Shown one piece after another: positions 10,001 through 25,422 of a stretch of 64,000 nt of DNA. The first letter of the stretch is position 1. Each line of letters begins with the position of its first letter. The stretch lies in NCBI GenBank assembly GCA_021323655.1, contig JAJPKO010000010.1, forward strand, positions 310,001 to 374,000. Direction: 5' to 3'. The DNA is from Acidobacteriaceae bacterium (GTDB lineage: Bacteria > Acidobacteriota > Terriglobia > Terriglobales > Acidobacteriaceae). Both the position numbers and the translations under genes were made by a program. The notes under the pieces were generated by a model. It was not told the origin of the DNA. It did not search any database and saw only the letters and a list, made by a program, of their open reading frames with translations.

Positions 10001-10010
10001 ACGGATCTCC

Positions 10011-10991
10011 TTAAACAAGGGTCATGGGCGCAGGCAGAAAGCTGCGGAAGCACACCACTTGCTCACCATCATTCGCATCGGTGACAGGCAGCGCGCGAAA
10101 GCTCGCAGTCAGTGCAACCCGCTCCAGCGGAGCAGAGAGAACCTCGCTCATCTCCTGTGCTCCCTGCATCGCCTGCAGCCGCGGATAGTGAAAGAAGATG
10201 CGCTCGCCCTGTTCGCCGGGTAGGACGAACAGCGCGGACCACTCCTGAAAAAAGCTTCCGCCTTCGCGGTCAACAAATCCAAGAATCGGCTGCACCTTCA
10301 TTCCGATCGCGGGCACGCCAGCCATCAAAGGCTGCGCAAGCGTAAGCCCCGCGGAAGACACCTGTGCCACGCGTGCTACGTTAAACGTCACGCGGCGGAT
10401 ATAGTCCGCGTCATTGTTCACCGCCGCCGCATTCCGCACATATGCAGCCGATACTCCGCTGCCGACAAAACCTGTCTGGCCGGAGTAGTCCACGTCTACA
10501 GCAACTAGCGCGCCAGCGCTGAATTGCGCCGCATCGCCAGCATCCAGCGCTATGAATGTCGCGGTGGATCCAGCCTGTACATTCACTGCTGCGATGCCCT
10601 TGGTACCCGATCCATTTGCCGCGCTGCCGCTCGCAGGTTCTAACAGGTTCATGTGCTGCGAGCCGGACGCCAGGGCCATCGTCAGCTTGTTCCATGTTTT
10701 AAACCGAAATGAGACATTTGCCCCCACAGCCTCGCGCACCTGATACTGTGCCACTGCCGGGATGCCTGTATTCAGCGCCCCAATCGTGCTCGCGGACTTG
10801 CGGGTGAAGTTCTCGATCCATCCCAGATCAATCCACGGCGCAGGTGGTGCATCAAGCGCTAACTGCACGTTCTGGGAAGGATCAAAAATCGTTGGGGACT
10901 GGCTGGTCCTGTTCACTGGGGCGAAATATGCTCGAACGCGCCGTGTCACCACGGGCAACGAAAGATAATTTGTAACCGTGGCTGTACTCAT
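10011..10991 (-). CDS. Putative major tail tube protein
   Basis: A 326-residue phage structural protein with alternating short beta strands, N-terminal VTRRVRAYFAPVNRT and a C-terminal VALTASFRALPVTDAN segment. The architecture and position, after two connector/terminator-size genes and before the hub gene, suggest the tube subunit. Its ATG overlaps the stop of the gene before it by four bases (ATGA). No sheath gene is present, so any tail would be non-contractile. It could instead be a decoration protein. Confidence 0.55.
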   Translation of the reverse strand: MSTATVTNYLSLPVVTRRVRAYFAPVNRTSQSPTIFDPSQNVQLALDAPPAPWIDLGWIENFTRKSASTIGALNTGIPAVAQYQVREAVGANVSFRFKTWNKLTMALASGSQHMNLLEPASGSAANGSGTKGIAAVNVQAGSTATFIALDAGDAAQFSAGALVAVDVDYSGQTGFVGSGVSAAYVRNAAAVNNDADYIRRVTFNVARVAQVSSAGLTLAQPLMAGVPAIGMKVQPILGFVDREGGSFFQEWSALFVLPGEQGERIFFHYPRLQAMQGAQEMSEVLSAPLERVALTASFRALPVTDANDGEQVVCFRSFLPAPMTLV

Positions 10992-11476
10992 AGTTCACCC
11001 TGCTCCTGAAACGCAAAAACATTTACTTTCGCCCGCCGTGTAAGCCGCTCCTTTGACGTAACAAGCGGAGAGAATTCTGGCGCGGTCCAGAAGACCACAG
11101 TCTCCATCTGCGCTGCGGGGCTGTGCGCATAAGCCATTTTCTGTGCAGAACCCGGCTGAAGAATCGAAACAAGCTCCGCATCCATTTCAGCCATGGCGCG
11201 GCCCCGGTCAAGTCCGTTGCTGGCCTGCGTACCTCCAGTTGCATAGTGGACCTCACAGGTCATCTGCGCGAGCGTCGAAGGCAGTTGTGTATCGGCATTC
11301 AGTGCTGTCCAGCGCAGCACGAAGACATCGCTGGGCATTTGCGCAATGGGGGCCTCGGCTTCCTCCACCAGAATTCCAGGGCGCTGCACTCCTCGCAGCA
11401 TCATCACCCGCTGGGGATCCAGTGCCGCCAACCGGTTACGCAACGTGATGTAAAAGGTGTCCTTTGCATTTTCCAT
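10988..11476 (-). CDS. Putative tail terminator / completion protein
   Basis: A 162-residue protein (MENAKDTFYITLRNRL) with a mixed alpha/beta pattern. It occupies the slot between head connectors and the tail tube where tail-terminator proteins are coded. The segment MTCEVHYATGG followed by LDRGRAMAEMDAEL resembles such proteins in style, but I do not recognise a named family. It is coupled to the tail tube gene by a four-base overlap. Confidence 0.55.
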   Translation of the reverse strand: MENAKDTFYITLRNRLAALDPQRVMMLRGVQRPGILVEEAEAPIAQMPSDVFVLRWTALNADTQLPSTLAQMTCEVHYATGGTQASNGLDRGRAMAEMDAELVSILQPGSAQKMAYAHSPAAQMETVVFWTAPEFSPLVTSKERLTRRAKVNVFAFQEQGEL

Positions 11477-11512: not shown

Positions 11513-11959
11513 TTAAGCAACGGTTTGTTTCAGCGCGTGCGCTTCACGTAACAAGAAGCGATACAAATACACCTGCCCCAACACCTCAGAAACAGCGCGG
11601 GACTCAATCACAAACTGCGCGCCGTCCACCATTACGCCTGCTGCCGAATCAAACAGCGCATCTGCGGATGTAAGCTGTAACGCGCTTACCTGCTGCGCGA
11701 CCGCCGATGCGGAAATCAAAAGCTCATACCTGGGCAGCTGGCCCTCGTTCATGGCAGCGCGCACCTGCCGGAAAAGCGCCGGGGACAGCGTCATCTGTTG
11801 GAAATTCGGCGCGTTCAACCCCAACTGTGCTGCATCACTGCTGTCTGGCACTCCCGGTGCGACGAGCAGCGAAACAACGTTACCTCCGGCAGCGCGCAGA
11901 AGTGCATCGGCCATCAGTACCGGGCCCTGGTTCGGATTCCTTACACTGAAGTCGCCCAT
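11513..11959 (-). CDS. Phage structural protein of unknown role (connector region)
   Basis: A 148-residue protein beginning MGDFSVRNPNQGPVLMADAL, with a helical middle and a C-terminal SEVLGQVYLYRFLLREAHAL helix. It starts three bases after the stop of the head-tail adaptor gene, so it belongs to the same operon. The function is not recognised; head-closure protein is a positional guess. Confidence 0.55.
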   Translation of the reverse strand: MGDFSVRNPNQGPVLMADALLRAAGGNVVSLLVAPGVPDSSDAAQLGLNAPNFQQMTLSPALFRQVRAAMNEGQLPRYELLISASAVAQQVSALQLTSADALFDSAAGVMVDGAQFVIESRAVSEVLGQVYLYRFLLREAHALKQTVA

Positions 11960-11962: not shown

Positions 11963-12586
11963 TCACCCCATCCTGCTTGCGATCCACGGCTTCAGGAGCT
12001 CTTCCACCGTACTGTCAATCAGCGAATTGGAGAAGTAGTCCATCTGCAGCGTGTCCACACGGCCGCGCTTCACATTCAGTCCTGGCGTGGCCTGCGCATT
12101 CTTCACAATCAGAGCGCATGCAGACTTCACTGCATCAGGAATTGTGGCCAACCCTGCCGTGTACGCCACCTGCACCTCGTTGAAGGGAAGCCCATACACA
12201 TTCATGGGAAAGACCAGCTCACCCGTATCAGCAACAAAGTCCACTGTGGAAGGATCCACCTGTGCCCAGCTGCCCGGCAGTGCAAAGGCCCAAGCAATCT
12301 CTTCCTGCATGGGATAAATCACCTGTCCTCGCCGCGGACGCGCATACCTTGCCTGAATGCTCACCAGCGGCAACGTGGCCGGAGCAATAGGCGCAAGCGG
12401 CAGATAACTCAGCCGCACAGTCTGCGCGCCGGTCGTCAACCTCAGTCTCTCTGTATATTGGGTGGGATTCAGGCTCGCACGCCTGCAATGGCTGTCAATC
12501 AATGCGGACGCAACCGTGATCCAGTCATCCGTTGTGTCTGCAGCAAGCCCATAGCTTGTATATTCCGTTGGTTGTAAATAGCCCAT
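11963..12586 (-). CDS. Putative head-tail adaptor (gp6-like)
   Basis: About 207 residues. The N-terminal region has TDDWITVASALIDSHCRRASLN and the TERLRLTTGAQTVRLSYLPL stretch. The later VQVAYTAGLATIPDAVKSACALIV pattern is typical of head-tail connector proteins of the gp6 type, which dock beneath the portal. The second of two adjacent ATGs (12586) is better spaced from GGAGA, although the frame is open further upstream. It follows the capsid gene after a terminator-like hairpin. Confidence 0.65.
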   Translation of the reverse strand: MGYLQPTEYTSYGLAADTTDDWITVASALIDSHCRRASLNPTQYTERLRLTTGAQTVRLSYLPLAPIAPATLPLVSIQARYARPRRGQVIYPMQEEIAWAFALPGSWAQVDPSTVDFVADTGELVFPMNVYGLPFNEVQVAYTAGLATIPDAVKSACALIVKNAQATPGLNVKRGRVDTLQMDYFSNSLIDSTVEELLKPWIASRMG

Positions 12587-12616
12587 CATTTCTCCACAAA
12601 GCGGGTCCCTCGTAAA

Positions 12617-12662
12617 GTAAAAAGGGAGCAAGGACCCCAACATCGTCAGAGTTCTCGCTCCC
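12617..12662 (-). terminator. Terminator-like hairpin after the capsid gene
   Basis: On the minus strand GGGAGC and GCTCCC arms are followed by TTTTTAC. It lies between the capsid stop and the adaptor start, and could raise capsid expression relative to the downstream genes by partial termination. Confidence 0.6.
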
Positions 12663-12683
12663 TTCAGCGGCCAGATCACCCGT

Positions 12684-13649
12684 TTAGCGGTCTACGAGCA
12701 CCTGATAATGCGCGTAGTTGGCGCCCTTCACCACCACGCCGCCAAACTTTACCACCACGTACTGCGAAGCTAGCGAACCCGGCACGCCGAGTTGGAAAAT
12801 ACGCGGGTTTGGATCGCTCAGCCAGTGGTACTCAATCATGTCTTCTGACACGATGTAAGCCGGAAGCACAGCCGAACCGGACCCCGATGTGCCTGTATAG
12901 CCCAGCGCCCAGTCAGGAATCAGCGGTAATTCGCCCGCCTGCGTGGAAAGCGTCTTGACCGTAAAGCCTGCGACCTCGCGCGTGTTCAGCACAACGTTGA
13001 ACTCGCTCTTCATCTCGCGATCAATCAGGTCGAGCAGCACCGGGTTTGCATAGATTGCACTCGGACGCACAGCGAAGTTGCTGTTCGCAACCATCTGTGC
13101 CACCGTGGACTTCAGGCCATCCACGATGCTCTGTGAAGTGCCAATCGTGACGGTGTTTCCGCTGGCTGCAATCTGCGAGGCGGCACCGTAGTACTGCGTT
13201 GTGGTCGGGCTGCTCAGCGACGTATCATTGCCGTTCCACAGCGCAATATCATGCGAGTGCAGAACACCCTCGACCGTGTCCACCAGGTCTTTGGCCTGCA
13301 GATAAGCAAACTGCTTTTGCTGCGTGCCCAGCTCAATATCGAACAGGTTGTAATTCAGCTGTGCAACAATCGCCTTCAGCGGAACGCTGCGCTCCACGCG
13401 TGTCGGACTCACGACCGGAGCGACAATGTTGCGCGGGTCCACAAAGCCGGCCGTTCCAGGAGAAGGAATGCCCGTCTCTTCAAAAAAGCGTGAAGGGTGA
13501 CCGGTGGCCGGTACCTGCTTGATGCGCTGACCAAAGATGCCGCGGCGGCGGACAAGGTCCGTGATCTCGGTCTGGTAAAACGGGACCTCGATCGCGCCAG
13601 GCCCAATAAAATCCGCTGCAGAGTGAATGTCGTAGAAGTTTGCTTTCAT
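12684..13649 (-). CDS. Major capsid protein, HK97-fold type
   Basis: Main shell protein of the phage-like particle, 321 residues from the ATG at 13649 (MKANFYDIHSAADF). The pattern is that of HK97-fold capsids. An N-terminal region binds the partner subunit, with VERSVPLKAIVAQLNYNLFD near residue 100. A helix with VANSNFAVRPSAIYANP near 190 follows, and the C-terminal P-domain has GVVVKGANYAHYQVLVD. A longer frame to 13757 includes vector-like repeat sequence and is not favoured. Gene order protease-scaffold-capsid supports the call. Confidence 0.78.
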   Translation of the reverse strand: MKANFYDIHSAADFIGPGAIEVPFYQTEITDLVRRRGIFGQRIKQVPATGHPSRFFEETGIPSPGTAGFVDPRNIVAPVVSPTRVERSVPLKAIVAQLNYNLFDIELGTQQKQFAYLQAKDLVDTVEGVLHSHDIALWNGNDTSLSSPTTTQYYGAASQIAASGNTVTIGTSQSIVDGLKSTVAQMVANSNFAVRPSAIYANPVLLDLIDREMKSEFNVVLNTREVAGFTVKTLSTQAGELPLIPDWALGYTGTSGSGSAVLPAYIVSEDMIEYHWLSDPNPRIFQLGVPGSLASQYVVVKFGGVVVKGANYAHYQVLVDR

Positions 13650-13763
13650 TCCCTTGTTCTTTCTGCCTGAATTCAGGCAAGTTGAAATGGATGTGTGAAG
13701 GGGGTGACCAAGTCCCCGCACCCGGGATGCCGGGTACCCCATGTCTGCGAAGAACACCTGTGA

Positions 13764-14144
13764 CTATCGCCCCAGCAATCCAGCGCGCATCAACTGCGCC
13801 TTCACCGCAATGCGCTGCTCCAGACTCAGCCCGCTCAGCGCCGCATCCAGCGATTCGGCCTGAATCGAATCCACCGTAGAAATTCCCTGCTTGGTGAGCA
13901 ACTGCATCGTCGAGGCCGGGACCGTCTGCCGGTGTGACTGTGCGCGCAGCTCGGCAATCTGCTGCTCCGCTGCCTCCAGCTTGCGCAGCAGCTCCTGCTC
14001 GCGGCCTTCCACCGCGGCAGTAATCTTTTCGACCGCGCCACCATGCTGCTCCAGCCACGCAACTGTTCTTTCCAGCGCGGCGGCCGCTGCGCTCAGCCGA
14101 TCAATGCTTTCTCCCAGAGAAACAAACATGCTTTCTGTTTCCAT
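13764..14144 (-). CDS. Coiled-coil scaffold-like protein
   Basis: About 126 residues, METESMF at the start. A long amphipathic helix (LSAAAAALERTVAWLEQH, then EGREQELLRKLEAAEQQIAEL) predicts a coiled coil, followed by a compact helical tail (SLEQRIAVKAQLMRAGLLGR). The start lies inside the 3' end of the protease gene. A helical protein between protease and capsid is the standard place for a scaffold that templates the prohead. Confidence 0.65.
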   Translation of the reverse strand: METESMFVSLGESIDRLSAAAAALERTVAWLEQHGGAVEKITAAVEGREQELLRKLEAAEQQIAELRAQSHRQTVPASTMQLLTKQGISTVDSIQAESLDAALSGLSLEQRIAVKAQLMRAGLLGR

Positions 14145-14721
14145 TACGCTCCCTTTCGTGTTGATAAAAATGTGGGGTTTGTGCCGCCACTCGCTGTGCC
14201 AGGCGGCTGTTGCTGCGGTGTTTTTCCGCAAGCCGGAACGACGTGTTCTGGTACGCCGCTTTCTCGCGCAGCAGAATCGCAGCTCCGGTAAATGTGGCCT
14301 TGGTCAATGTCCAGACCTCGGCCCGCAAGTCTGCTACGTGAGCATCCGCCAGTTCATAGGACATGCCCATGGCGCCAGCGGCCGTGTCCGCAAGCTGCTG
14401 CACAACATCAGGAAAATCGCGGCCAAACAGATAGCCGCGCACGCGCAGCTCCTTGCCTACCACATCTGCCTGGGTGATGATTCCGCATTTTGCCCGCGCA
14501 TCGTGCCGGTCCCACTTCGGCGCAAAATCCACCGCCATACCCAGCAGCGATGGCAGCGCTTCTTCCGCGGCCCAGCGCGTCAGCACCACACGGTGTCCGC
14601 GCGCGCCTGAAGGAGGCCGCGTGCTGACCTCATCCACCACCGTTAATACCCCTTCAAAGGGCACGCGGTTCGGATGCTCCGCCACCTCCGGCATGGCAAT
14701 CGCCATTGCTTCCAGTTTCAT
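14101..14721 (-). CDS. Putative prohead protease
   Basis: About 206 residues from the ATG at 14721 (MKLEAMAIAMPEV). It fits the layout of phage capsid-maturation proteases: a candidate catalytic His in APKWDRHDARAK, strands GIITQADVVGKELRVRG, and a candidate catalytic Ser in GAMGMSYEL. A hydrophobic TLTKATFTGAAILL stretch follows. The C-terminal 50 residues are basic. It overlaps the scaffold start by 44 bases. The assignment depends on the H/S pattern and its place between portal and capsid. Confidence 0.62.
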   Translation of the reverse strand: MKLEAMAIAMPEVAEHPNRVPFEGVLTVVDEVSTRPPSGARGHRVVLTRWAAEEALPSLLGMAVDFAPKWDRHDARAKCGIITQADVVGKELRVRGYLFGRDFPDVVQQLADTAAGAMGMSYELADAHVADLRAEVWTLTKATFTGAAILLREKAAYQNTSFRLAEKHRSNSRLAQRVAAQTPHFYQHERERNGNRKHVCFSGRKH

Positions 14722-15007
14722 TCCCTCTCCATCACTCGTATTTGCATTTGATTTTTTCAAGCAGTCAGCGGGCCTTTGGCCCTGTTGGCTGAAAAGCGGT
14801 TGGCGGCCTCTGGTCCGTAAGCAAGTCGAGCAAATGCTGCTCTCCAAATGCCGGGTGCCCCATTCTGTCGCGCTGTGGTTGCGCAATAGGGTGGGAACCC
14901 ACAAACGTTCACCTGCCACGCACTTTCCAGCCATCGGGCAGAAGGCAGCAAACAGGGGCGAAAGGAGGCTTGACTGCCGACCGCTTCTTGGCCGACCTGC
15001 TGACTCA
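14722..15007. repeat. 286-base spacer with palindromic repeat copy 2
   Basis: There is no gene here. At about 14855-14900 a hairpin-forming stretch (GTGCCCCATT, an inner GCGC pair, then AATAGGGTGGGA) matches the family seen at 20001 and 7657. Further on, a CACAAACGTTCACCTGCCAC stretch resembles the spacer repeats at 16346 and 17317. Confidence 0.5.
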
Positions 15008-16219
15008 CTACTCCAGCGGAGCGAGCCCTCTCATCGCGCGCACTTCATTCACCGTCAAGACTCCGGCCTTCAACAGCTCTGTTTGTATCCGCATCTCCGC
15101 CACTTCATCCGGCGCATCCAGTTCGTTGAAGACAAACTCAAACTCGCGCCACCCCAGTTTCTTCGCAAACAGATCGCGCGTCAGCTGTTCTGCTACAAGC
15201 CTGGCCAACGGCACGACCGCACTCCGAAACGCCTCATCCGACTGCTCAGCCGCCGTGGTGCGATTCACCTCGCGCTCCAGCCCCAGCAGCATCGGCGGCA
15301 GCCCAAAGGCATTCGCTACCATACGAATCAGAAACTCCTGCCACGCCAGGCGTAGATCAGCATCCGTGCCATTTGAAAAGCGCAGCACCTCCGGCTTCTG
15401 TTCTGTGCTCAGGAGCGGAACGCGTCCCGTGCCTTCAATCTCGTCCTGCCACCAGCGAATCAGCCGTTCATGCTCAGCCGGGGTCGCCTCATTCAGCCAA
15501 AGCGCATACTGCACCACCGAATTGCTCGCCAGATTTCCGGCAAAGCGATGTGCCGCCAGAAACGCGTTGACCGTCTCAAACGCAACCTCCAGCGGCCCCA
15601 GCCCAAAGGGCGTGTGTGAGCGCGGATTCATTCGCAGGTACATCAACTGGTCATCGCGCAGCAGAATGCGCCCTTCACTGCCCGGCAGACCGGTCGTCTG
15701 CACATACCGCACCGACTCTGGCTTGCCATCCCACTTCGGATCAATCTGGATCGTTGCGCCATCCACTGCCCATAGTTCGACCGGCCTCTGCGCATCGCCT
15801 GTCAGTTCCATTTCCACCGTGCCAAAACCGCCCACCAGCGCGTCTTCCAGTACCTGCTCCATCAGCGTGCGAAAGGAATCGCCCGGGTTCGGCTCCTCCA
15901 GTACCAGCCGCAGAATCTGCATGCGCTCCAGCGCATCCGGAACATCCGCTACAGAAAATCCGCGCTTCAGCTTCACCTGCCAGTCCATGCTGGCAATCCG
16001 GTCTTTCAGCAGATTGATCGCCCTGCGCACCAGTGGTGTCTCCGCAAACCGGCGAAGATTCACCGGCGTTGGCTTGGGCAGCAAATGCGAGTTTGCACGA
16101 AACGGCGTCAGAATCGAAGGCAACGCCAGTGTCTTTCGCTTGGCCGTGCCATTTGCTTCCGCCGCTACCTCCACGCTCTTCGGCCTCCATAATTTCTGAA
16201 TCGAATCGGTAATCCTCAA
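15008..16219 (-). CDS. Phage portal protein
   Basis: Dodecameric portal subunit through which DNA enters the head, about 404 residues. Recognisable portal features are VRRAINLLKDRIASMDW near residue 65 and LEDALVGGFGTVEMEL near 125. RMNPRSHTPFGLGPLEVAFE lies near 195, and FLIRMVANAFGLPPMLLGLE near 290. The C-terminal tail is helical. I choose the TTG at 16219 because GGAGGCGGGCACG precedes it and because the longer frame would run through a terminator hairpin. Confidence 0.85.
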   Translation of the reverse strand: MRITDSIQKLWRPKSVEVAAEANGTAKRKTLALPSILTPFRANSHLLPKPTPVNLRRFAETPLVRRAINLLKDRIASMDWQVKLKRGFSVADVPDALERMQILRLVLEEPNPGDSFRTLMEQVLEDALVGGFGTVEMELTGDAQRPVELWAVDGATIQIDPKWDGKPESVRYVQTTGLPGSEGRILLRDDQLMYLRMNPRSHTPFGLGPLEVAFETVNAFLAAHRFAGNLASNSVVQYALWLNEATPAEHERLIRWWQDEIEGTGRVPLLSTEQKPEVLRFSNGTDADLRLAWQEFLIRMVANAFGLPPMLLGLEREVNRTTAAEQSDEAFRSAVVPLARLVAEQLTRDLFAKKLGWREFEFVFNELDAPDEVAEMRIQTELLKAGVLTVNEVRAMRGLAPLE

Positions 16220-16240
16220 CGTGCCCGCCTCCAATCTTTT

Positions 16241-16281
16241 TTCCGAAAAAAGAAAAGGCATGACTCGAAAGCCATGCCTTT
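16241..16281 (-). terminator. Intrinsic terminator between cargo pair and portal
   Basis: On the minus strand AAAGGCATG pairs with CATGCCTTT around a 10-base loop and is followed by TCTTTTTTC. It would end transcription coming from the DUF3037 gene before the portal start, separating cargo from structural genes. Confidence 0.7.
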
Positions 16282-16345
16282 GCCGCCACAAACCTGATTT
16301 ACGTTAATTTTGCATCTGAAGCCCTGTCAGGGAAGAAGCCGGATG

Positions 16346-16392
16346 CCAGGTGCCACAAATCTTCACCTGCCACCTGCGTCTTAGCTGACCGC
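16346..16392. repeat. Spacer repeat A (copy downstream of DUF3037 gene)
   Basis: Shares the words GGTGCCACAAATC, TCACCTGC, TCTTAG and CTGACCGC in the same order with the stretch at 17317-17361. Both copies lie directly beyond a stop codon of the cargo pair. Confidence 0.6.
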
Positions 16393-16394: not shown

Positions 16395-17210
16395 TCACAC
16401 CCTCAACTCCCGCAGCGCCGTCTCCGCCACACGCGAAAGATCATTCACCGTCAGCACCCGAATCCGCTGCGCTTCCATCGTTTCCACTGCAAAACGATAC
16501 TCATCCCACTCTGCGCTGACCTCCGCAATCGGCTCGACAATTGCCGTCAGCTCCAGCTCAGCCTTTTCCACTCGCGCCACGCCTTCGCGGATCGAAGGAA
16601 CACTGAACGCCAGCACCTTCGGCACATCAGAATCGCCATCCAGCGACACCGCATGGAACATCCGGATGATTCCATTCGGCCTGTAGCCGCAATCAATCCG
16701 CAGCGGGTCGCCCGCCCTTGTATACGCTGAGACAGCAATGCGTTTCCGCATCAGGTCCCACACCCCGGCGCGCTCAAACTCCGAGCGCATCTTGGCGTGG
16801 ATCGCCATCCGTCCACTCTGCTTCTTCGCGGCCTCGCGCTTGCGCGGTTCCACATAGATGCGCATCAGCTCTTCCATGCCGGCCTGCATAGACTCGGCCA
16901 GGTATGCCGCCGGCATTGTGATCTGGACCGCATTCGACAGGCAATCTTCCAGCACCTGCATCAGCGGTTTGCCAGGAACAAGCTCGCCGCCAATCCTCTC
17001 CCGCAGCTCGCTCTCCAGGCTTTCCAGCATGCCAATGTCTGCATCCGGATCCACGCAGCGCACTCGCGACCAGTCTTTGGTAAAACGCAGCAATGCGCGG
17101 TCCGCGCGCCCTGCCTCACGCAGCAGCACGCCGATGTTCACAAACTCATTCCTTACCGGGTCCGGCACATACCGCACCAGCAGGAAATCGCATTGCAGGC
17201 GTCCGTTCAT
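16395..17210 (-). CDS. DUF3037 family protein, partner of HipA-like kinase
   Basis: A 271-residue cytoplasmic protein. The N-terminus (FLLVRYVPDPVRNEFVNIGV) is the hallmark of DUF3037 proteins, followed by a helical middle (AKKQSGRMAIHAKM) and an alpha/beta C-terminal half. DUF3037 genes are repeatedly found beside HipA-like kinase genes, as here, where the kinase gene is just upstream on the same strand with a 168-base spacer. The molecular role of DUF3037 is not established to my knowledge. It interrupts an otherwise canonical terminase-to-portal order, which marks it as cargo. Confidence 0.82.
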   Translation of the reverse strand: MNGRLQCDFLLVRYVPDPVRNEFVNIGVLLREAGRADRALLRFTKDWSRVRCVDPDADIGMLESLESELRERIGGELVPGKPLMQVLEDCLSNAVQITMPAAYLAESMQAGMEELMRIYVEPRKREAAKKQSGRMAIHAKMRSEFERAGVWDLMRKRIAVSAYTRAGDPLRIDCGYRPNGIIRMFHAVSLDGDSDVPKVLAFSVPSIREGVARVEKAELELTAIVEPIAEVSAEWDEYRFAVETMEAQRIRVLTVNDLSRVAETALRELRV

Positions 17211-17316
17211 CGTTTGAATCTGTGCTACTCCTTTGCTTCGTTTGCGAAAGGCCTGCTTCGCAGGCTGTCAGCGGGTTTCGGTCGCCATTAGCCCCACTCA
17301 TCCAGACTGCACCGCC

Positions 17317-17361
17317 GGGTGCCACAAATCTCCACCTGCATCTTAGATAACTGCTGACCGC
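17317..17361. repeat. Spacer repeat B (between kinase and DUF3037 genes)
   Basis: Second copy of the spacer repeat at 16346-16392, with GGGTGCCACAAATC, TCCACCTGC, TCTTAG and CTGACCGCTTTT in the same order. Confidence 0.6.
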
Positions 17362-17378
17362 TTTTCGCTGCCCCGCTC

Positions 17379-18251
17379 TCACATCACCGGCCCACGGATA
17401 TCATCGGACCAATCCGGCCCCACAAACTGCCTTCCCACCACAACACTTTCCATCTTCATCCACTTTGGAAAGGGCTGACGCGACGATTCCCGAAACTGCG
17501 TGATCAACTCCCGCACGCGGCTTCGCCGAAGCAGCAGTTGTTCCATCAACCGTTCCATCTCGGTCACATCGCCTCCATACCACTCCGGCGGAACCATCTC
17601 CGCCAGCGACCACACCTTCTGCGGGTCCAGCTCTTCCACGCGCGTCAGCCACGGCTCAAAGCTGTCCCAATTCACTACATCCCTGTAGGCCAGATTTCGC
17701 GCATATACTCCGCGCAGCGGAGCATCCACAAACTTCCACTCCCCTGCATTAAAACAATATCCCTGATCAATAAATGTAGCCGCATACTTTTTGTCCCGCG
17801 GCCGTTTGTAGAAGACCGCCTGCCGACCATTTGCATTGCACGTCCATTTATCAATCACCAGCATCCCGGCAAATTCCGCCAGATTTTTCACCTCGGCCAG
17901 GCGCTCTTCTGGCAGATAATCCACCACCAGCCCTGGCATCAGCCCGCCCACCAGCCGCGATCCAAACTGCAAACCGGCGCAACATTGCTCCTGTTTCCGT
18001 CCAAAGTCCATCATCAGTTCTTTGGAATTTTCAATCAGCCACTCTGTGACCTCCACAACATCGCACGGCGGAACACTCAGCCCCACCATCTCCGCCAGCT
18101 TCGTTGCCAAAAGCTCATTGGCCAGCACGCGCACATGCTGCGGATTGTTCTGGAACTTCACCACATATGGCTGCCCATCCGAACCAAGCATCAGATGACT
18201 CTGCGCCCCGCCCCGCATCTTCCGAACAGCCTGTATCGCCTGGACCGCCAA
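17379..18251 (-). CDS. HipA-like (HipA_2 type) kinase
   Basis: About 290 residues. The N-terminus RKMRGGAQSHLMLGSDGQ followed by YVVKFQNNPQ shows a glycine-rich loop and the ATP-binding Lys of the HipA-type kinase fold. FAGMLVIDKWTCNANGRQAVF near residue 135 carries the catalytic-loop Asp and Asn, and FIDQGYCFNAGEW near 180 carries the metal-binding Asp. HipA kinases phosphorylate translation targets and cause growth arrest; the target here is unknown. I prefer the TTG at 18251, after GGAGAG, to the longer frame at 18293. No HipB-like antitoxin gene is adjacent; the neighbour is DUF3037. Confidence 0.82.
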   Translation of the reverse strand: MAVQAIQAVRKMRGGAQSHLMLGSDGQPYVVKFQNNPQHVRVLANELLATKLAEMVGLSVPPCDVVEVTEWLIENSKELMMDFGRKQEQCCAGLQFGSRLVGGLMPGLVVDYLPEERLAEVKNLAEFAGMLVIDKWTCNANGRQAVFYKRPRDKKYAATFIDQGYCFNAGEWKFVDAPLRGVYARNLAYRDVVNWDSFEPWLTRVEELDPQKVWSLAEMVPPEWYGGDVTEMERLMEQLLLRRSRVRELITQFRESSRQPFPKWMKMESVVVGRQFVGPDWSDDIRGPVM

Positions 18252-18424: not shown

Positions 18425-19969
18425 TCAAAAGCGCTGACCCGCTCCTACCATCCTCTCCCTCGTAGCCAGCCCAACCGCCATCGCCATCACGCAATCATCA
18501 TGCGCACCGCTCTTCGCTCCCGCTTTCCCATTTGGAAGCCGCACAAAACTTCGGCACTCCTGCAACAGCCGCCTGCTTGAAACGATCTCCGGAGTCTCCA
18601 CCAGGGCCGCTGCCAGCAGGTTCAGCATAGTTGGTCTCTCCATGGGAGAAGTCAGCCACCCATCCTGCCCCTTCTGCTGAAAGATGCGCTCATATCTGCA
18701 AACACTGTGCAGATAAGCCAGCACCCCGGCGCCATGGTTGTTCCGCTCCACTACCAGCACAGCATCGTTGTATTCCCGGGCCAGCTTCGCCACCTCCTGC
18801 GCCAGCTCCAGCGGAGGCAGCTTCGCCTGCAACTCCGCGCATTGCAACCCGTGCTTCAACTCAATCGCCTGTGCTGCGGAATAATCTCCCTCACTTCCGC
18901 CGCCGGCTGTGTCCACCGCTACCAGATACTGCTTCCCACGTACAGGAGGAAACCATATCTGCAGCTTTCCTCCCATCCGCGTCGCAATCGGTTCCGGAAC
19001 TTCCTTCACCCGGTCATCAATTGCGCTTACATCAAAGAAGCACTCCCCGCTGGTCAAAAAGCATTCCATCGCGTCTTCCGGATACTCCTGCTTTGCCAGC
19101 CCGCGCAGTCCTGCGTGAACTTTGCGCCGGAACCCAATCTGTTCCCGGTCCAGCCCATGCCGTTCCATCAGCTCGCGCTCTTCTTCTGTCAGCGACTTTG
19201 CAGAAACCGCCTTGGCACGATACGCAGGCTCCCACCACCAGGGAAAGAAGTGCTGCACCATACCGGTCTCTCCGGCCTTGTTCCACTCCTCCCAGAAGCA
19301 TCCCTCCGCACCGTTCGGCGTAGACTCAAGCACAAGTTCGCCAGATGGAGGCATCGCCGCCCGCAGCCCCTGCAGAATCTCCGCCGCATCGCCCGGCCAC
19401 CGCGCTACCTCTGAGCAGTGCAGGTTCTGGATCGTCAACCCGCGTCCGGCGTTCACATCGCCCGCGCTTTCTACCCGGTACTCACTGTCTATCTGAGGGA
19501 AAACAATCTGCCGCGCGCTCGCATGCGATGTGCGCAAAGGCCCAACCCGAAGCTTCTCCGGAAGATTTTCAAGAAACCGATGCACAATCCTGAAGATCCC
19601 CTCTGCTGCCTCCTGCGTATGCGCCACCTGGAGCGTCAGCGTACCTGGCTGCAGAATCGTCTTCAGAAAAAAGCGCGCCGCCACCCATGTGCTGATGCCC
19701 ATCTGTCGCGACTTCAGTACAATGTTTTCCCGCCCGCGCCGCCGCTCATACTCCAGTTGCGCCGGGTTCAGTTCCAGGCGAACGATCTTCCCCTTCCGGT
19801 TTCGAATCCGCAGCAGGGCCGAAGCGGTCACAATCAAAGTCGGTTCGTCATACAACAAAGGAAGCTCATCAGACAACACCTCTCCCACATGCACTGCTTC
19901 TGCACGGTCGTCCCCTTCCCAAATGGTCTTCATCACACCATCAATCCAATCAGAGCATCGCGTAAGCAA
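18425..19969 (-). CDS. Phage terminase large subunit
   Basis: DNA-packaging ATPase-nuclease, 514 residues. The ATPase part has a Walker A-like SRQMGIST near residue 87, a coupling QVAHTQEAAEGI segment, and a Walker B-like LVLESTPNGAEG near 210. The C-terminal RNase H-fold nuclease has LVAVDTAGGGSEGDYSA near 348 and VVERNNHGAGVLAY near 400 with the acidic residues expected. The frame opens at a TTG at 19969; an ATG at 19933 (MKTIWEGDD) is an equally plausible start. No small-subunit gene was found beside it. Confidence 0.9.
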   Translation of the reverse strand: MLTRCSDWIDGVMKTIWEGDDRAEAVHVGEVLSDELPLLYDEPTLIVTASALLRIRNRKGKIVRLELNPAQLEYERRRGRENIVLKSRQMGISTWVAARFFLKTILQPGTLTLQVAHTQEAAEGIFRIVHRFLENLPEKLRVGPLRTSHASARQIVFPQIDSEYRVESAGDVNAGRGLTIQNLHCSEVARWPGDAAEILQGLRAAMPPSGELVLESTPNGAEGCFWEEWNKAGETGMVQHFFPWWWEPAYRAKAVSAKSLTEEERELMERHGLDREQIGFRRKVHAGLRGLAKQEYPEDAMECFLTSGECFFDVSAIDDRVKEVPEPIATRMGGKLQIWFPPVRGKQYLVAVDTAGGGSEGDYSAAQAIELKHGLQCAELQAKLPPLELAQEVAKLAREYNDAVLVVERNNHGAGVLAYLHSVCRYERIFQQKGQDGWLTSPMERPTMLNLLAAALVETPEIVSSRRLLQECRSFVRLPNGKAGAKSGAHDDCVMAMAVGLATRERMVGAGQRF

Positions 19970-20039: not shown

Positions 20040-23000
20040 CTAATACGCATACCAGTTGTAGTCCGGAGCACACACCAGCGTCCGTTTCCCCGCCGACGAA
20101 ATCACCAGCGACGTTCCCGTCACTCCCTGATAATTGATCGTCTGCGAACTCACTGCCGCCAGGGTCACTGCATTCGAGCTTGTGTCCGACTTGATGATCG
20201 TGAACTCCTCGCCTGTCGGCTGTGCCTTGTCCGCCCATTGCGTATAGCAGCTCGGCAGCGTGATCGTCTGCGGCCCGCTCGCCGCATTCGCAATCACATT
20301 TTTGTTCGCTGGCGTCAGCGTCATCGCTGAAGCGGTATTGATCACAGTAGACAGCGCAATCCCGCCCTGCGAGCGGATCGTCCCCTGATACGTCACGTTG
20401 AAGAACGGGTTCTGCCCCGCCACATGCGCCTCAAACACATCCGTCTGGTACCCGTTGTAGAGCTGCGCCGAATACGCCTCGTAGTTGGAAGTCCCCGCCT
20501 TTGGCGCCGCCCACACCGTAGCTACCGCGCCATTTCCCGGAGCATTGTTGGACGCGCCACCCGCCGTAAACCCGGTCGTCGTCTCCGGCTCCAGCGCTTG
20601 CGCATAATTGCCGCACCCCGTCAGATGATGCACGCTGGCAAACGCCGGAGGTACGCCCGAACTCGCCGCATACGTAATCCAGTTCGCCGTTGCAGACATC
20701 CCCAGGCACCCAATGTCGGCAATTTCGAGCCCATTTGTAACCGTGTTGGCTACATAAGCAAGGTTCGCCGCCGGAAAGCTCGTCGTATCCGGCCACTGGA
20801 TATGTCCGCCATGAATGTTCGTCCCATTCGCGCCTACATAAAATGCCGCCACCGCCGGACTGTCCGCATAGGTGTCCGTCCATACACTGCCCGCGCCACC
20901 CGTATCATAGATCACGTAATTCGTCGCATACGACGCATTCGCAGCCGACCCGCTCGCCGCCGTATTGCTGCAAGGTGCCGTTGTGCACGTGTATGGATAC
21001 CCGAAGCCATGAATCATGTATCCTGTATTGCCCGTGCCTTCGTTCCATACGCTCGCCACCTGCGCATTCCGCACCAGCACGGTATCCAGATGGCTGTCCA
21101 TCGCCGTCTTCTGCAAATGAACGCCATACGCGGCCCGGTTTGCTGGAGTGAAGGCCGACGCGCTGTAGCTCACCATAATGTTCCGCATCAGGAACCCCGA
21201 CTGGTGCCCACCCGCCGTCGAGCTTTCGCCCAGCAAAATCCCCTCCGCCGTCGTGTCATTCACCGCAACATTTTCAATCAGCAGTCCACGAAACCACTGC
21301 AACTCCAGCCCGTGCGTTGCGTTCGCATTGGCAAGAATGGTGAAGTCCTTAAACACGCACCCCTGCGCCTGCGCCGCATTCCCCAGAAAAATCACATCTC
21401 CGTTCAGATTGCCGGCTACATTCAGCGTCGTCGCGCTCACCGTGCTGTCCGCTACCTGGCTCATTCCACCAGAGCCCACCAGGTCTACACACGCACCATT
21501 TCCCGGCTCGGTCAGCGTCGCCGTCACCGCATATGTACCCGGCCCCAGCCGCACCGTCTGGTTGCGTCCCGTCGAAACAGCCGCATTCACCGCCGCCGCC
21601 CACGCCGCATTCAACGTCGGATACGTCCCTCCATCCACCGTAAATTCGCCATTGATGGATGCCGCCGAAATTCCGCCGCCAATCTTTGCATTGCCAGCTC
21701 CATCATCCAGCGTATTGTTCGCAGTCTTTACCTGGCCGCCGTTTTGCACGTGCAGGTACGACTTCGCATCATTCGTCAGCACATCAAACATGGCGTCGAC
21801 CGAACCGCCGCTGTTTTCATGCGACTGCACTGCAATTCCCGCAGTGTTGCGAACAAACACAGGACGCGCATAATTCGGGCTTCCCACATACTGCATATTG
21901 CCTACCAGCCCAAAGCTGCTGCCGTTGCCCTTTCCTCCCACCACATACATGCAGCCCGTGCAATTCGAGTCCAGATAAACATTGTTGGTCGCAGGCTCAA
22001 ACTGCGCTTTGGAATATCCGCCAGACTGTCCCGCAACATTCCAGAGATAGTAAAAGTAATTCGAGTCTGCGCATCCAGTTTGCGGACAGTTCTGCACACG
22101 CAACAAGCTGCCTGCATATGTCGGCGGATTCACCGCGTCCAGAAAGTTCTGATAGGTTGCATTGTTTCCGTTCGCAGACGATTCAACAAACAAATCGGGA
22201 GGAACAAGACTTCCGCCGAAGTACTGATACTTCGTGGCCGGAGTATTCAAAGAAACGTTAATTGCCCCGTTCTGCAATGGCCCGGCATTCTGTGCATTGT
22301 TGGCGATTCCTGACCCCTGCAAACCAATCTCAAGCCCTTTCCATACAAACGAATTGGGATTGTGGATGTTCAGGTCAGACTTCATGCCTTCATACTGCAT
22401 GGCGAAAAGGTGTGACTCTTCGACCGCGTCGCCTGTCTGCCAAGGATTCAGATTGTCCTCAAGCGCAAACGTTCCGTCTACCAGATAATTGTTCGCCGGG
22501 TTCTGTGCATCCAGCACTTCTGCGCCGGGATACAGCGTGAAGTCGCCATTCCCAGCTGGCGTGTCACCATAGGCCAGATTCGCAGTGGCCGATGTGTGTG
22601 CCCCGCTCAGCCCGGGAATCGTACATTGCCACATCTGCCCGGAAACATACTGCACATTCGTACATTGCGTGTTCAGCGCAGAATCCGACGCTCCAGAGAT
22701 GGTGACTACCGGAGCATTGTTGTACAACACAATGTTGTTTGGGCCCGTGAACTGATACGAAAACTGTACTGTCGTCCCCGTAGAAGACAGATTCGAGATG
22801 CCCATTGTCCCAATAAACAGGCCGTAAATGTTAAGCCCAAGTCCCGCCAGATTGCCGTCGGCCTTGAGAAACGCCTTGTATACCAGCGTGTTCGACGACG
22901 TGGCCCCAAGGATGTCAATCGGGTAGCGGAACCCGTCACCGTGCATGGCAGCAATGTCGGCAAAGTTGCCGCATGGGCCGCCTTCCATAATCCACGTACC

Positions 23001-24806
23001 CTGAGCATGTGGCTCACGCAGGTTTGCTGTGAGCGTCTGCTGGCCTCCGGATGGACTGGACGCCGACAGAATCTTCGCCTGCTCATGAAAGTTTCCCGCA
23101 AAGCAGGCAAGCTGCCCCGTCACAAACGCCCCACTACTCACGTTGACCGTGAACGTCATGGGCGTGCTGCCCGTTCCCATCGGATTCGGAATCGGCGTAG
23201 CAACAGGATTCGTCAGCGTGCCCCATGCTGTCGAAGGCGTCACAGAACCAGCAATCGTCATTGTGCCCGGCGTGTTGCCGCTCGGGTTCGTATAGGCAGT
23301 GATGTAGCTGGTCAGCGCGGGTCGGCTCGTGTCAATCAGGTAGCGTCCCTGCCCGGCCAGATTATTTCCGTTGTAGACGTTGCAGTCCGAAGTGCAATTC
23401 GTCTTGATGTTTGTCGAAGACGTAATCGTCGAAATGGTTCCCTGATACGGCGCTGTTTCTCCCGGCCAGCCTTCAATGACCTGCGCTACATAACCTTCCG
23501 TGCCTTCATCGTCTGGTGCTGTTGAACCGCCCGATTGCACGGAATACACATATGAGCCGACGGTGTCGCCCGGCGAAGCACTCCGCACGCTTGTGTAATT
23601 GATGGCCTGCCCGGAACCCGTCGAAAATACGTTGTCATCGTGCGAAGTCCTTGCTACCCATCCGCCAATACTGCCGCCAGTTGAGAACGCTCCGCGATTG
23701 ATGCCCGGACTCGTGGCCTGCATGTCGGACTTGTCGCCGTCCAGCATCATGTAGCCTTGCGTGTTGGTGCGAGGGCCGTTGATTGTTGTCTCCACATACC
23801 GCGAAGGGAACACATAACCTTGTAGCGACCACTGCGAAGGGTTCGTGACCCATTGGCTATTGTTCATACTTGTCAGTGCAAATTGCGCTAAAGATACCGT
23901 CGAAGGCCCGGTAAAAGTCTGGCCAGCAATCTTTACTGTGATTCCCGAAGCAAGATTCAGGGATGCGCCGCCGTCCGTCTCAATATTGCTGGACAGCGTC
24001 AGCGTGCCCGACACTTTATAGCTGCCATTGGGAATGTATAAAGGCGCCTGGTGCGCTCCTGCATAAGCATCCGCCGCCGTAAAGGCAGCTGTAGAATCCA
24101 GTACGCCCGATGGGTCAGCTCCTCCGGCAAAATCTGTATGCCGCACATCCACACGGGGCAGCTTCGCAATCACATTCGGCATACGCAGTGCTCCGGTCAT
24201 GCTGCCGCCAGACAACGGCACCGCACTCTGCACTGCCTGGTCCACGTACTGCTTCGACGCCGCCTGATTGCTCGCCGTCGGTGCGCCCGCCAGCGTCAGT
24301 GGACCAGACATCGCGCCCCCACTCACCTGCAAGTAGTTCCCGCTCAGCGACGCGATGGAAGCATCCACATACTGCTTGGTCGCACTCTGCACCGCCACAG
24401 TCGCCGGCACCAACTGCGCGCGCACTGACGTCAACGAGGCGCTCGCCGCCTGCGGCACCACCCAGTATTCCTTGTTCACCGTACCATCACTCAGGTGGTA
24501 CACCACCGTATAGTACGTCCCTGCCGGGGACGCGCCTGCATTCGGCGCAAGGTTCAGGCTTACAAATCCGTCCTGCCCGATCACAGCCGTCGTGCTTCCC
24601 GCGGCAATGGTCCGGTTGCTCGCCGTAGAAAAGGCCGGCCAGCTTACAATCACCGTCCCTGCCGCCGGTGTTCCATCCGCCCGGTACACGATTCCCTGAA
24701 CAGTCGTTGTGCTTATCTGGGCATCCACAAGGCCGCAGCACAGCATAACCACAGTTGCAGCCAGTGCAATTCTTCGCATCATTCGTTCGGCAAAACCTGT
24801 TCTCAT
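20040..24806 (-). CDS. Large exported tailspike-like protein with pectin-lyase-fold domains
   Basis: About 1,588 residues. An N-terminal signal peptide (MMRRIALAATVVMLCCG, cleavage near VDAQ) is followed by a short beta domain. Two tail-fibre style repeats come next, each with a KQYVD element and a GGxMSGPL/GGSMTGAL element (about residues 140-215). A pectate-lyase-3 start, DFAGGADPSGVLDSTAAF, lies near 232, then a long beta-rich central part and a second beta-helix region near 1050-1220 (TVDGGTYPTLNAAW, VFKDFTILANANATHG). Such proteins bind or cut polysaccharide. A cleavable signal is unusual for a virion fibre and could mean a surface protein of the host. A GTG at 24815 is an alternative start. 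Confidence 0.72.
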   Translation of the reverse strand: MRTGFAERMMRRIALAATVVMLCCGLVDAQISTTTVQGIVYRADGTPAAGTVIVSWPAFSTASNRTIAAGSTTAVIGQDGFVSLNLAPNAGASPAGTYYTVVYHLSDGTVNKEYWVVPQAASASLTSVRAQLVPATVAVQSATKQYVDASIASLSGNYLQVSGGAMSGPLTLAGAPTASNQAASKQYVDQAVQSAVPLSGGSMTGALRMPNVIAKLPRVDVRHTDFAGGADPSGVLDSTAAFTAADAYAGAHQAPLYIPNGSYKVSGTLTLSSNIETDGGASLNLASGITVKIAGQTFTGPSTVSLAQFALTSMNNSQWVTNPSQWSLQGYVFPSRYVETTINGPRTNTQGYMMLDGDKSDMQATSPGINRGAFSTGGSIGGWVARTSHDDNVFSTGSGQAINYTSVRSASPGDTVGSYVYSVQSGGSTAPDDEGTEGYVAQVIEGWPGETAPYQGTISTITSSTNIKTNCTSDCNVYNGNNLAGQGRYLIDTSRPALTSYITAYTNPSGNTPGTMTIAGSVTPSTAWGTLTNPVATPIPNPMGTGSTPMTFTVNVSSGAFVTGQLACFAGNFHEQAKILSASSPSGGQQTLTANLREPHAQGTWIMEGGPCGNFADIAAMHGDGFRYPIDILGATSSNTLVYKAFLKADGNLAGLGLNIYGLFIGTMGISNLSSTGTTVQFSYQFTGPNNIVLYNNAPVVTISGASDSALNTQCTNVQYVSGQMWQCTIPGLSGAHTSATANLAYGDTPAGNGDFTLYPGAEVLDAQNPANNYLVDGTFALEDNLNPWQTGDAVEESHLFAMQYEGMKSDLNIHNPNSFVWKGLEIGLQGSGIANNAQNAGPLQNGAINVSLNTPATKYQYFGGSLVPPDLFVESSANGNNATYQNFLDAVNPPTYAGSLLRVQNCPQTGCADSNYFYYLWNVAGQSGGYSKAQFEPATNNVYLDSNCTGCMYVVGGKGNGSSFGLVGNMQYVGSPNYARPVFVRNTAGIAVQSHENSGGSVDAMFDVLTNDAKSYLHVQNGGQVKTANNTLDDGAGNAKIGGGISAASINGEFTVDGGTYPTLNAAWAAAVNAAVSTGRNQTVRLGPGTYAVTATLTEPGNGACVDLVGSGGMSQVADSTVSATTLNVAGNLNGDVIFLGNAAQAQGCVFKDFTILANANATHGLELQWFRGLLIENVAVNDTTAEGILLGESSTAGGHQSGFLMRNIMVSYSASAFTPANRAAYGVHLQKTAMDSHLDTVLVRNAQVASVWNEGTGNTGYMIHGFGYPYTCTTAPCSNTAASGSAANASYATNYVIYDTGGAGSVWTDTYADSPAVAAFYVGANGTNIHGGHIQWPDTTSFPAANLAYVANTVTNGLEIADIGCLGMSATANWITYAASSGVPPAFASVHHLTGCGNYAQALEPETTTGFTAGGASNNAPGNGAVATVWAAPKAGTSNYEAYSAQLYNGYQTDVFEAHVAGQNPFFNVTYQGTIRSQGGIALSTVINTASAMTLTPANKNVIANAASGPQTITLPSCYTQWADKAQPTGEEFTIIKSDTSSNAVTLAAVSSQTINYQGVTGTSLVISSAGKRTLVCAPDYNWYAY

Positions 24807-25288: not shown

Positions 25289-25422
25289 CGATTTCTTTAC
25301 TCTTAAGTTCAGAATATCATTTTCACTAAAAATTACCGGCCACTTCCCCGCAAAAATAAATTCTTGTAAATACAGGGTTTATCATGTTTTCCACAGCATC
25401 CCCTCTTGACACCATTTCTCGT

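Follow-up and report, generated by a model that had tools for sequence, protein, structure and literature searches.

A kinase–DUF3037 pair within a phage-derived block

In the window (the whole stretch of 64,000 nucleotides analyzed here, from an Acidobacteriaceae contig), genes of phage origin for head formation and packaging are grouped at a single locus, where the minus strand reads, in order, terminase, HipA_2 kinase, DUF3037 gene, terminator and portal. The large terminase (18425..19969; PHROG 2, E=9.6e-25), the portal (15008..16291; PF04860, E=3.2e-56) and a head–tail adaptor (11963..12679; PHROG 442, E=2e-15), all on the minus strand, were recognized by profile. A putative major capsid protein (12684..13757, minus; the gene is conserved) and a putative head protease (14101..14934, minus; its place is conserved) were assigned by position only, the protease candidate having no significant family match in Pfam and PHROG scans. 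Capsid homologues in large phage contigs are 66–70% identical to the putative capsid; its structure model was poor (pLDDT 35), and its profile found no useful match among three phage proteins, two of them annotated as capsids and the third encoded at the capsid position. Other minus-strand genes encode a conserved small block protein (13764..14231), two further conserved block proteins (11513..11959 and 10988..11476) and two conserved proteins that are tail-side by position, of 326 aa (10011..10991) and 776 aa (7688..10018), neither with a significant match. When the capsid and these two tail-side proteins were searched as profiles against the PDB, nothing useful emerged, and permissive PHROG and Pfam scans gave chance-level matches only, save for SU10_MCP (E=0.02) in one of 39 capsid members.

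Upstream of the terminase, a 1591-aa protein (20040..24815, minus) that varies among relatives may be tail-spike-like, judged only from its length and position. A Cro/C1-type HTH regulator gene marks the upstream end of the block (26495..27190, plus; PF13443, 3.9e-7; 25/123 loci), beside which lies a divergent gene (25384..25965, plus) that recurs in 24/123 loci. Conserved chromosomal flanks are formed by purE (6548..7039, minus; 36/123 loci) and purK (5406..6551, minus; 31/123 loci). Among 20 ORFs scanned there was no integrase, nor any phage replication or integration gene.

The kinase gene (17379..18251, minus) matches Pfam HipA_2 (E=4.8e-10, residues 24–101) and the PADLOC model PDC-M66A (E=3.3e-9). 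Its mechanically called ORF reaches 18293, and a TTG start at 18251 agrees with the aligned homologues. The HipA_C match is weak and falls under the Pfam cut-off; PDB profile searches with the kinase and with the DUF3037 protein gave nothing useful, the best kinase match to solved HipA-family toxins reaching only E=0.54. K46, D148, N153 and D176—which by analogy with HipA would provide the ATP lysine, catalytic loop and metal site—do not vary across 29 alignment rows. (Alignments consisted of the window sequence and a subset of rows picked for open frames and spread: 28/36 for the kinase, 29/40 for DUF3037 and 38/80 for the capsid.)

Directly downstream, the gene for the DUF3037 protein, the probable partner or antitoxin (16395..17210, minus), matches PF11236 (E=1.2e-17) and PDC-M66B of PADLOC (E=2.2e-8). 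Residues 127–271 adopt a PD-(D/E)XK-like fold in the structure model (pLDDT 85.6) and resemble Can2, Cdn1, BstEII, XPF and similar proteins (Z 6–8.4; best Foldseek E 8.8e-3), which presumably all belong to the PD-(D/E)XK superfamily. In the 30-row alignment D168 occurs in every row and D173 in 29, while position 186, where an acidic residue would be expected by eye, holds H (19) or Q (11); the C-terminal domain seems to be PD-(D/E)XK-like without the (D/E)xK motif. The sequence features by which HipAD / PDC-M66 systems are recognized (a match to the kinase model, retained catalytic residues and an adjacent downstream DUF3037 gene) were all found, and by these sequence marks the pair is a member of the HipAD / PDC-M66 / DS-6 group.

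Between the DUF3037 gene and the portal, a stem-loop with a T-run (16254..16281, minus; −17.9 kcal/mol, z=−2.3) is a predicted intrinsic terminator. By count the terminator scan did not exceed chance (2 sites vs 4.5 in shuffles); the call is supported because a like hairpin recurs in the same gap across loci, in 38/47 vs 2/47 shuffled gaps (37/49 in another version of the scan). The kinase–DUF3037 and terminase–kinase gaps held no hairpin in one scan version and 2/50 and 4/51, respectively, in the other. Since the terminator overlaps the first codons of the mechanically called portal ORF, the true portal start probably lies downstream. A 26-nt direct repeat brackets the DUF3037 gene, with one copy in the DUF3037–portal spacer (16345..16370) and the other in the kinase–DUF3037 spacer (17314..17339); with up to 2 mismatches allowed, the genome contains just two occurrences of a 21-base core of the repeat, and the corresponding region of a same-genus relative (L034) has no such repeat. 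No sigma-70-type promoter emerged from a scan of 14900–20100 (1.4 expected). These comparisons show terminase, kinase and DUF3037 genes as one short-spaced run, closed by a conserved predicted terminator before the portal. An earlier note on this DNA had described a HipA_2-type kinase with intact residues, then a DUF3037 gene, their own terminator and flanking spacer repeats; both genes and their order are confirmed, and the residues, hairpin and repeats are as it described.

Conservation and inheritance of the block

The phage-derived block spans ~20 kb, and its capsid gene is present as a single copy in 70/120 family genomes. Among 80 loci found via the capsid gene, all 41 that have both terminase and portal carry the kinase–DUF3037 pair between them. 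A separate set gave 40/41, many of its loci having been retrieved around DUF3037 and hence biased towards it, and in IMG/VR the pair is present in 22/25 contigs with terminase and portal (20/23 minus two found via the kinase itself). Capsid and DUF3037 genes co-occur (64/6/12/38 over 120 family genomes; Fisher p=2e-14) and lie within 12 kb of each other in 57/64, on the same strand in all 57. Where head genes are rearranged, the terminase–kinase–DUF3037 unit is intact. Loci L157, L267, L270 and L273 have terminase and portal without the pair between them, and the pair is also missing from the G009 block contig (L156), where no terminase was seen; its loss or relocation from this gap is scattered and amounts to at least four changes.

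The earlier note had called the pair “inserted,” a description that fails because this gene order goes back to the ancestor of the family; family-wide synteny rules out a recent insertion of cargo. The association between block and pair is probably old, because one locus of family f7 (L154) has the terminase–kinase–DUF3037–portal order of f1 yet a kinase that groups with f7. In another f7 locus (L155), the terminase lies ~8 kb off on the opposite strand and the portal is split over two frames. Horizontal spread of block and pair from f1 to f7 is ruled out by the grouping of the f7 block kinases with f7 (98/94). We also considered the 25 IMG/VR contigs as proof of free phages with the pair, which they are not, because their gene order is that of the chromosomal block and mostly nothing lies beyond it. 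A related capsid also occurs in four large phage contigs, whose examined stretches contained no pair and which the kinase scan did not match.

Mantel correlations with rpoB are 0.60 for the kinase, 0.83 for DUF3037, 0.57 for the terminase, 0.67 for the portal and 0.77 for the capsid (0/2000 permutations each), and nearest neighbors match those of rpoB in 17/36, 15/36, 18/36, 21/35 and 9/31 cases, respectively, where ~1 is expected by chance. Values of dN/dS (0.07–0.23 for the kinase, with 0.13 vs the same genus, and 0.035–0.17 for DUF3037, with 0.09 for the gene of the window) come from a simple Nei–Gojobori count in which several pairs come close to saturation at synonymous sites. As judged from gene divergence, these data show block genes to be under purifying selection and to track the host. 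Once rpoB is removed, the kinase and DUF3037 are weakly coupled (partial Mantel 0.18, 78/2000); kinase divergence follows the portal (0.59, 0/2000), the 776-aa protein (0.40, 0/2000) and the terminase (0.38, 1/2000), with values of 0.07 for the capsid and 0.04 for the adaptor, and DUF3037 gives 0.01 with each of portal and capsid.

Because the block is single copy, is often flanked by purE–purK, is under selection, tracks rpoB and keeps its unit through rearrangement, we infer that it is domesticated and vertically inherited. Vertical inheritance and purifying selection, which serve to recognize gene transfer agents (GTAs), were both found, with nearest-neighbor agreement partial, and the block is possibly GTA-like. 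Its likeness to GTAs of the RcGTA type lies in phage head genes held in one host-inherited, selected, single-copy locus, known here from genes alone; unlike them, it belongs to another phylum and has a kinase pair inside. Loci of this kind have been published: coordinates given for Cluster 153 acidobacterial prophages in Terriglobus roseus NC_018014 and KBS 89 scaffold 5 (Eichorst, 2018) are those of our loci L108 and L115, and Terriglobales provirus group (ii) of the Tunturi paper may correspond to the block, a link made through Koribacter only. The passages concerned call these loci prophages or proviruses and mention neither vertical inheritance nor the kinase pair, and in the parts of the open-access literature covered we found no published description of the kinase pair in this block.

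Relatives, stand-alone genes and competing readings

Where published work treats relatives of this pair, HipA kinase and DUF3037 act as toxin and antitoxin with anti-phage activity: in Retron-Sda1, removing HipA abolishes defence and removing DUF3037 is toxic, and DS-6/HipAD requires a predicted catalytic kinase residue, its two proteins being predicted to interact with one another and with DNA (PMC12548924, PMC13092281). HipAD (DS-6) of E. coli and HipA-HipD of phage PhiR5_1 likewise consist of a HipA-like kinase gene with a DUF3037 gene after it. Their kinase and that of the window share 28.6% identity over 58% of the length, and the PhiR5_1 proteins match our profiles (HipA, 2.4e-15 over 202 kinase columns; HipD, 7.7e-12 over 150 DUF3037 columns). 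In PhiR5_1, an E. coli phage, the pair accompanies lambda-like genes and sits between cI and kil, whereas here the block is inherited with the host and the pair separates the terminase from the portal. The PADLOC candidate system PDC-M66, both of whose models are matched here, and the Retron-Sda1 operon have the same gene pair, but that of the window has phage structural neighbors. HipBA toxin–antitoxin systems share the kinase superfamily and have HipB as the partner, in place of DUF3037.

The two genes also occur outside the block, together or singly. The kinase is found in 159/200 class genomes vs 35 for the capsid, and such a near-core, class-wide kinase gene is unusual as a defence system. 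Pairs lie beside purEK without phage genes in L164, L165 and L181; upstream genes found at the f7 block locus L154 recur in stand-alone f7 and f12 loci; and in L180 a related HTH gene adjoins a stand-alone pair, as it would in a relic. Kinases with no DUF3037 match nearby (L166, L168, L174, L175, including both f6 kinase loci examined) speak against a strict toxin–antitoxin pair, because a toxin should not be left alone; the reverse, DUF3037 with no kinase match nearby, occurs in L057, L060, L061, L067, L070, L169 and L171. Phage linkage of HipA_2–DUF3037 pairs is strong within the family, and most genomes of other families examined lack phage genes beside them (in a first set, 0/13 loci had terminase and portal).

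The reading that we favor, with confidence slightly above even, is that the pair is a HipAD-type module, likely anti-phage, which has long belonged to a phage block that the Acidobacteriaceae have domesticated and inherit vertically. Of four alternatives, the one that survives best, though we think it unlikely, has the pair controlling a GTA-like particle, with the kinase stalling the producing cell or DUF3037 gating the passage from packaging to head assembly. The fixed site beside the terminase, the shared terminator and the covariation of the kinase with portal, 776-aa protein and terminase would fit such control, and there is precedent in Caulobacter, where the immune-like LypABC is described as governing GTA release (PMC13236601). 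Yet the pair survives without the block and, in a few loci, the block without the pair; the kinase does not covary with capsid or adaptor, nor DUF3037 with portal or capsid; recombination of the whole segment might itself yield the kinase correlations; and the block is known from its genes, with no known particle, packaging or transfer.

Less probable again is that the pair consists of old chromosomal housekeeping or defence genes of the class, around which the phage block formed, so that the context is accidental. The excess of kinase over capsid across the class, the chromosomal neighbors that stand-alone pairs share and the first set of other-family loci speak for it. Against it stand the full f1 order with an f7-type kinase in L154, the survival of the unit through rearrangement, the relic-like HTH gene of L180 and, as weaker counter-evidence, L155.

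We give little credence to an addiction module that persists by punishing its own loss, with no gain for host or block: the pair is retained once phage genes vanish, and loss of DUF3037 is toxic in the Retron-Sda1 relative, but the scattered losses or relocations and the kinases lacking a nearby DUF3037 match argue otherwise. An ordinary active prophage family with recent defence cargo, the view of the earlier note, is scarcely credible: the published prophage and provirus labels, the related capsid in large phage contigs and the pair in PhiR5_1 speak for it, and it is opposed by the single copy, a purEK flank that many loci share, divergence that follows the host, selection of the purifying kind, the lack of an integrase in the 20 ORFs scanned and the family-wide presence of the pair. 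What stands of that note's proposal is a putative arrest kinase with a probable DUF3037 antitoxin linked to phage genes, consistent with the relatives as published and with phage linkage in the family; the cargo of an ordinary prophage does not stand, and the roles that the note suggested (superinfection exclusion, lysogen stability, particle-linked dormancy) are speculative.

A candidate anti-phage switch and its significance

Within the favored reading of a HipAD-type module in a domesticated block, the kinase is probably a restrained growth-arrest kinase that serves defence and/or control of the block, as its relatives and context suggest. By analogy with published relatives, the DUF3037 protein would bind the kinase and hold it off, and perhaps would also bind DNA through the PD-(D/E)XK-like domain at its C-terminus. 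Should another phage infect the cell, or the block be expressed, this balance would break, and the freed kinase would phosphorylate a host target and arrest growth. The most likely outcome would be a population protected from phage; a second role may be the holding or timing of the block, which may still form GTA-like particles.

More speculatively, and with considerable doubt, the Acidobacteriaceae may possess an independently domesticated GTA-like system, commonly by purE–purK, in which a HipA kinase–DUF3037 switch in the terminase unit ties packaging to arrest of the producer, guards against phages and outlives the particle genes as a class-wide immune gene. If true, this would be one way for a domesticated virus to seed a host immune system. 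The locus presents an anti-phage kinase pair of a validated kind as a long-standing neighbor of phage packaging genes, kept by descent, and joins topics that are usually separate—HipA toxins, defence systems and domesticated phages. It calls into question the prophage reading of these loci and flags a candidate GTA locus in an abundant soil phylum.

Proposed inheritance of the pair within its phage block

The pair, a HipA_2-type kinase gene (17379-18251, minus strand) and a DUF3037 gene (16395-17210, minus), lies between the genes for the large terminase (18425-19969, minus) and the portal (15008-16291, minus), and we lean slightly toward reading it as an ancestral part of a vertically inherited, domesticated phage block (the ~20-kb phage-derived cluster of the window and its homologs in relatives). 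After the portal, the minus strand carries genes for a putative protease, a small conserved protein, a putative capsid and an adaptor, then four more conserved block genes reaching 7688; a 1591-aa gene lies upstream of the terminase, a Cro/C1-type regulator (26495-27190, plus) on the upstream side of the block, and purE and purK downstream. GC content is 58% in pair and block and 57% in the window. A 26-nt repeat lies on either side of the DUF3037 gene (16345-16370 and 17314-17339); its core occurs only twice in the genome, and it was not found in that region of the same-genus relative examined.

Among 120 same-family genomes, the capsid gene occurs in 70, as a single copy each, and DUF3037 in 76 (64 with both, 6 with the capsid alone, 12 with DUF3037 alone, 38 with neither; Fisher p = 2e-14). 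The two lie ≤12 kb apart in 57 of the 64, on the same strand in all 57 and with DUF3037 upstream in 55. As far as positions and lengths (the latter for G075 and G109) show, the six capsid-only genomes have <3.2 kb of sequence upstream of the capsid, below the shortest spacing seen, and therefore none is a proven pairless block. purE is present in 36 of 123 loci and purK in 31, many loci stopping short of that flank. Protein distances for the kinase, DUF3037, terminase, portal, capsid, protease, adaptor and both tail-side genes track those of rpoB (Mantel r 0.57–0.83, 0/2000 permutations each, 30–36 genomes), as do those of the purE control (r 0.58, 13/2000, only 11 genomes), and dN/dS is <0.25 for all pairs computed (capsid 0.02–0.08). 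Judged from sequence comparison, the block is inherited with its host. Nearest neighbors match those of rpoB in 9/31 (capsid) to 21/35 (portal) cases (chance ~1), and because this agreement is partial, there is room for some exchange.

Across 200 genomes of the class, the kinase was found in 159, the capsid in 35 and the portal in 39. In three family genomes (loci L164, L165, L181), kinase and DUF3037 adjoin purE-purK, and phage genes were not detected within the 17–20 kb examined. Within f7, another family of the class, L154 has the full terminase–kinase–DUF3037–portal order, and L155 runs from kinase through DUF3037 and portal to capsid, with the portal in two frames and the terminase ~8 kb off on the other strand; both kinases cluster with f7 and not with family f1. 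Genes upstream of L154 are common to stand-alone pairs of f7 (L065, L178 and, for one gene, L179) and to the f12 stand-alone pair L180, where a related HTH gene adjoins the pair; the flanks of L155 have nothing in common with those loci, and what L172 and L173 have in common with L065 and L179 is confined to downstream genes. We read the pattern as that of an old block in which repeated loss of the phage genes would have left the pair in place. That the block was assembled around an already old pair is unlikely.

A plain toxin–antitoxin pair of kinase and DUF3037 fits poorly with four loci that have a kinase and no DUF3037 match nearby (L166, L168, L174, L175), with seven that have DUF3037 and no kinase match (L057, L060, L061, L067, L070, L169, L171), and with a kinase–DUF3037 coupling that is weak after rpoB (0.18). 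L174 and L175, where the kinase lacks a DUF3037 neighbor, belong to family f6, and the gene next to the L174 kinase resembles, by eye, DNA topoisomerase I. DUF3037 lies near purE-purK in L169 and L171, with no kinase detected. L005, L006, L007 and L039 have a DUF3037 match of another kind, probably a separate lineage; it is much the stronger match in ten family genomes (E <1e-38), and the nearby kinase match in L039 is weak (36 bits).

Gene order, transcription and viral kin

The linkage to phage genes raised in the earlier note holds within the family and mostly not outside it. In a first set of 40 neighborhoods in relatives, fetched around DUF3037, terminase, kinase, DUF3037 and portal occur together in 21 of 27 same-family loci and in 0 of 13 from other families. 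Better evidence comes from 80 named acidobacterial loci, the top-ranking 80 among 206 recovered by a capsid alignment, because these were not chosen for the pair. Terminase and portal are both present in 41, the pair lies between them in 41/41, and no complete kinase (0/47) or DUF3037 (0/48) ORF is short. This conserved order rules out a recent insertion, and the earlier claim that the pair had been inserted, splitting a normal terminase–portal order, falls with it.

An additional set (overlapping the named organisms and partly fetched by DUF3037) has the pair in this position in 40/41 loci, and IMG/VR contigs in 22/25, or 20/23 without two found only by kinase (pairless: L267, L270, L273). 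The order is intact even where Granulicella- and Edaphobacter-type loci have two block modules swapped (L048, L089, L103, L187, L188 and L242, which reach far enough). In the portal tree, five pairless loci are dispersed, giving at least four changes; in G032 and G009 the pair sits elsewhere in the genome. The pairless terminase–portal gap of G032 (L157, 13522-13956) holds a short ORF that we take to resemble a four-helix S23-type protein. In G023 (L052, 5031-6902), a local rearrangement has placed purE-purK inside the block, oppositely oriented, with the capsid gene on one side and the protease gene on the other. L128, labeled Verrucomicrobia Tous-C9LFEB, carries block genes with a capsid 80% identical; the bin is probably mislabeled or chimeric.

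Median gaps are 82 bp (terminase–kinase), 41 bp (kinase–DUF3037) and 139 bp (DUF3037–portal). The terminator noted earlier between DUF3037 and portal (16281-16254, minus) recurs as a similar hairpin in 38/47 such gaps (2 in shuffled gaps), its stems differing in sequence between loci with pairing retained; terminase–kinase (4/51), kinase–DUF3037 (2/50) and the five remaining gap sets (≤2 each) have few. Given the short gaps and the hairpins concentrated after DUF3037, the genes from terminase to DUF3037 are probably transcribed together as a single unit, and since a second hairpin follows the capsid gene in 32/77 capsid–adaptor gaps of named loci (7 in shuffled), the block may be split into three.

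The block capsid had no tblastn match among 50,697 phage records. Its homologs (66–70% identity) occur in four large IMG/VR phage contigs of 74–214 kb (L272, L274, L275, L276), with DNA ligase, polynucleotide kinase, thymidylate synthase and RNA ligase family matches nearby in L276, and helicase and exonuclease matches plus a protease-like homolog in L274. By these homologs and their phage-type neighbors, the capsid is of phage kind, with viral kin; the four contigs may be relatives of the domesticated block or the stock from which it came.

Known relatives and possible function

Kinase and DUF3037 protein each match one of the two PADLOC PDC-M66 models, and profile comparison matches them to HipA (E = 2.4e-15) and HipD (E = 7.7e-12) of Escherichia phage PhiR5_1, where, however, the pair lies between cI and kil instead of between terminase and portal. 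The DUF3037 protein model (pLDDT 85.6) has middling fold-match scores at residues 127–271 (Can2 Z 8.4, Cdn1 8.2, BstEII 7.9, XPF 7.2, ERCC1 6.9), mostly, we presume, PD-(D/E)XK nucleases and inactive relatives, with a few of other kinds (e.g., succinyl-CoA synthetase, Z 6.4). D168 and D173 are conserved, and the second acidic site, placed by eye, is H or Q in 30/30. The modeled C-terminal domain resembles a PD-(D/E)XK fold in which the (D/E)xK motif is apparently missing, and a DNA-binding, nuclease-dead role is a reasonable guess.

In published work, defense by Retron-Sda1 requires the kinase and removal of its DUF3037 is toxic (PMC12548924), and altering a residue predicted to be catalytic abolishes defense by DS-6, since renamed HipAD, whose proteins are predicted to bind one another and DNA (PMC13092281). 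Given these reports, the anti-phage activity of such a pair is already known.

The work of Eichorst et al. (2018) places prophage Cluster 153 at 150–180 kb in Terriglobus roseus and 60–90 kb on KBS 89 scaffold 5, to which L108 and L115 map (L115 starting 0.7 kb earlier), and reports no detected prophage in KBS 146, where block genes are present (L111). Terriglobales proviruses in a 2025 paper may be the same block, and a Sphagnum study suggested prophage-derived regions in Acidobacteriaceae. The consulted portions of these three accounts mention neither vertical inheritance of the block nor the kinase pair; as far as the open-access literature searched extends, the pair as an ancestral component of a host-inherited phage block is new.

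A connection to packaging or particle release is attractive because the pair adjoins the terminase. Once rpoB is accounted for, kinase divergence correlates with that of portal (0.59), the 776-aa protein (0.40) and terminase (0.38), whereas for capsid (0.07) and adaptor (0.04) there is no such correlation, nor is there one between DUF3037 and portal (0.01). Immune-like LypABC, which governs GTA release in Caulobacter, offers a published precedent (PMC13236601). The mechanism best supported by relatives is that of a growth-arrest kinase that would be restrained by the DUF3037 protein, loss of restraint arresting growth and so limiting phage.
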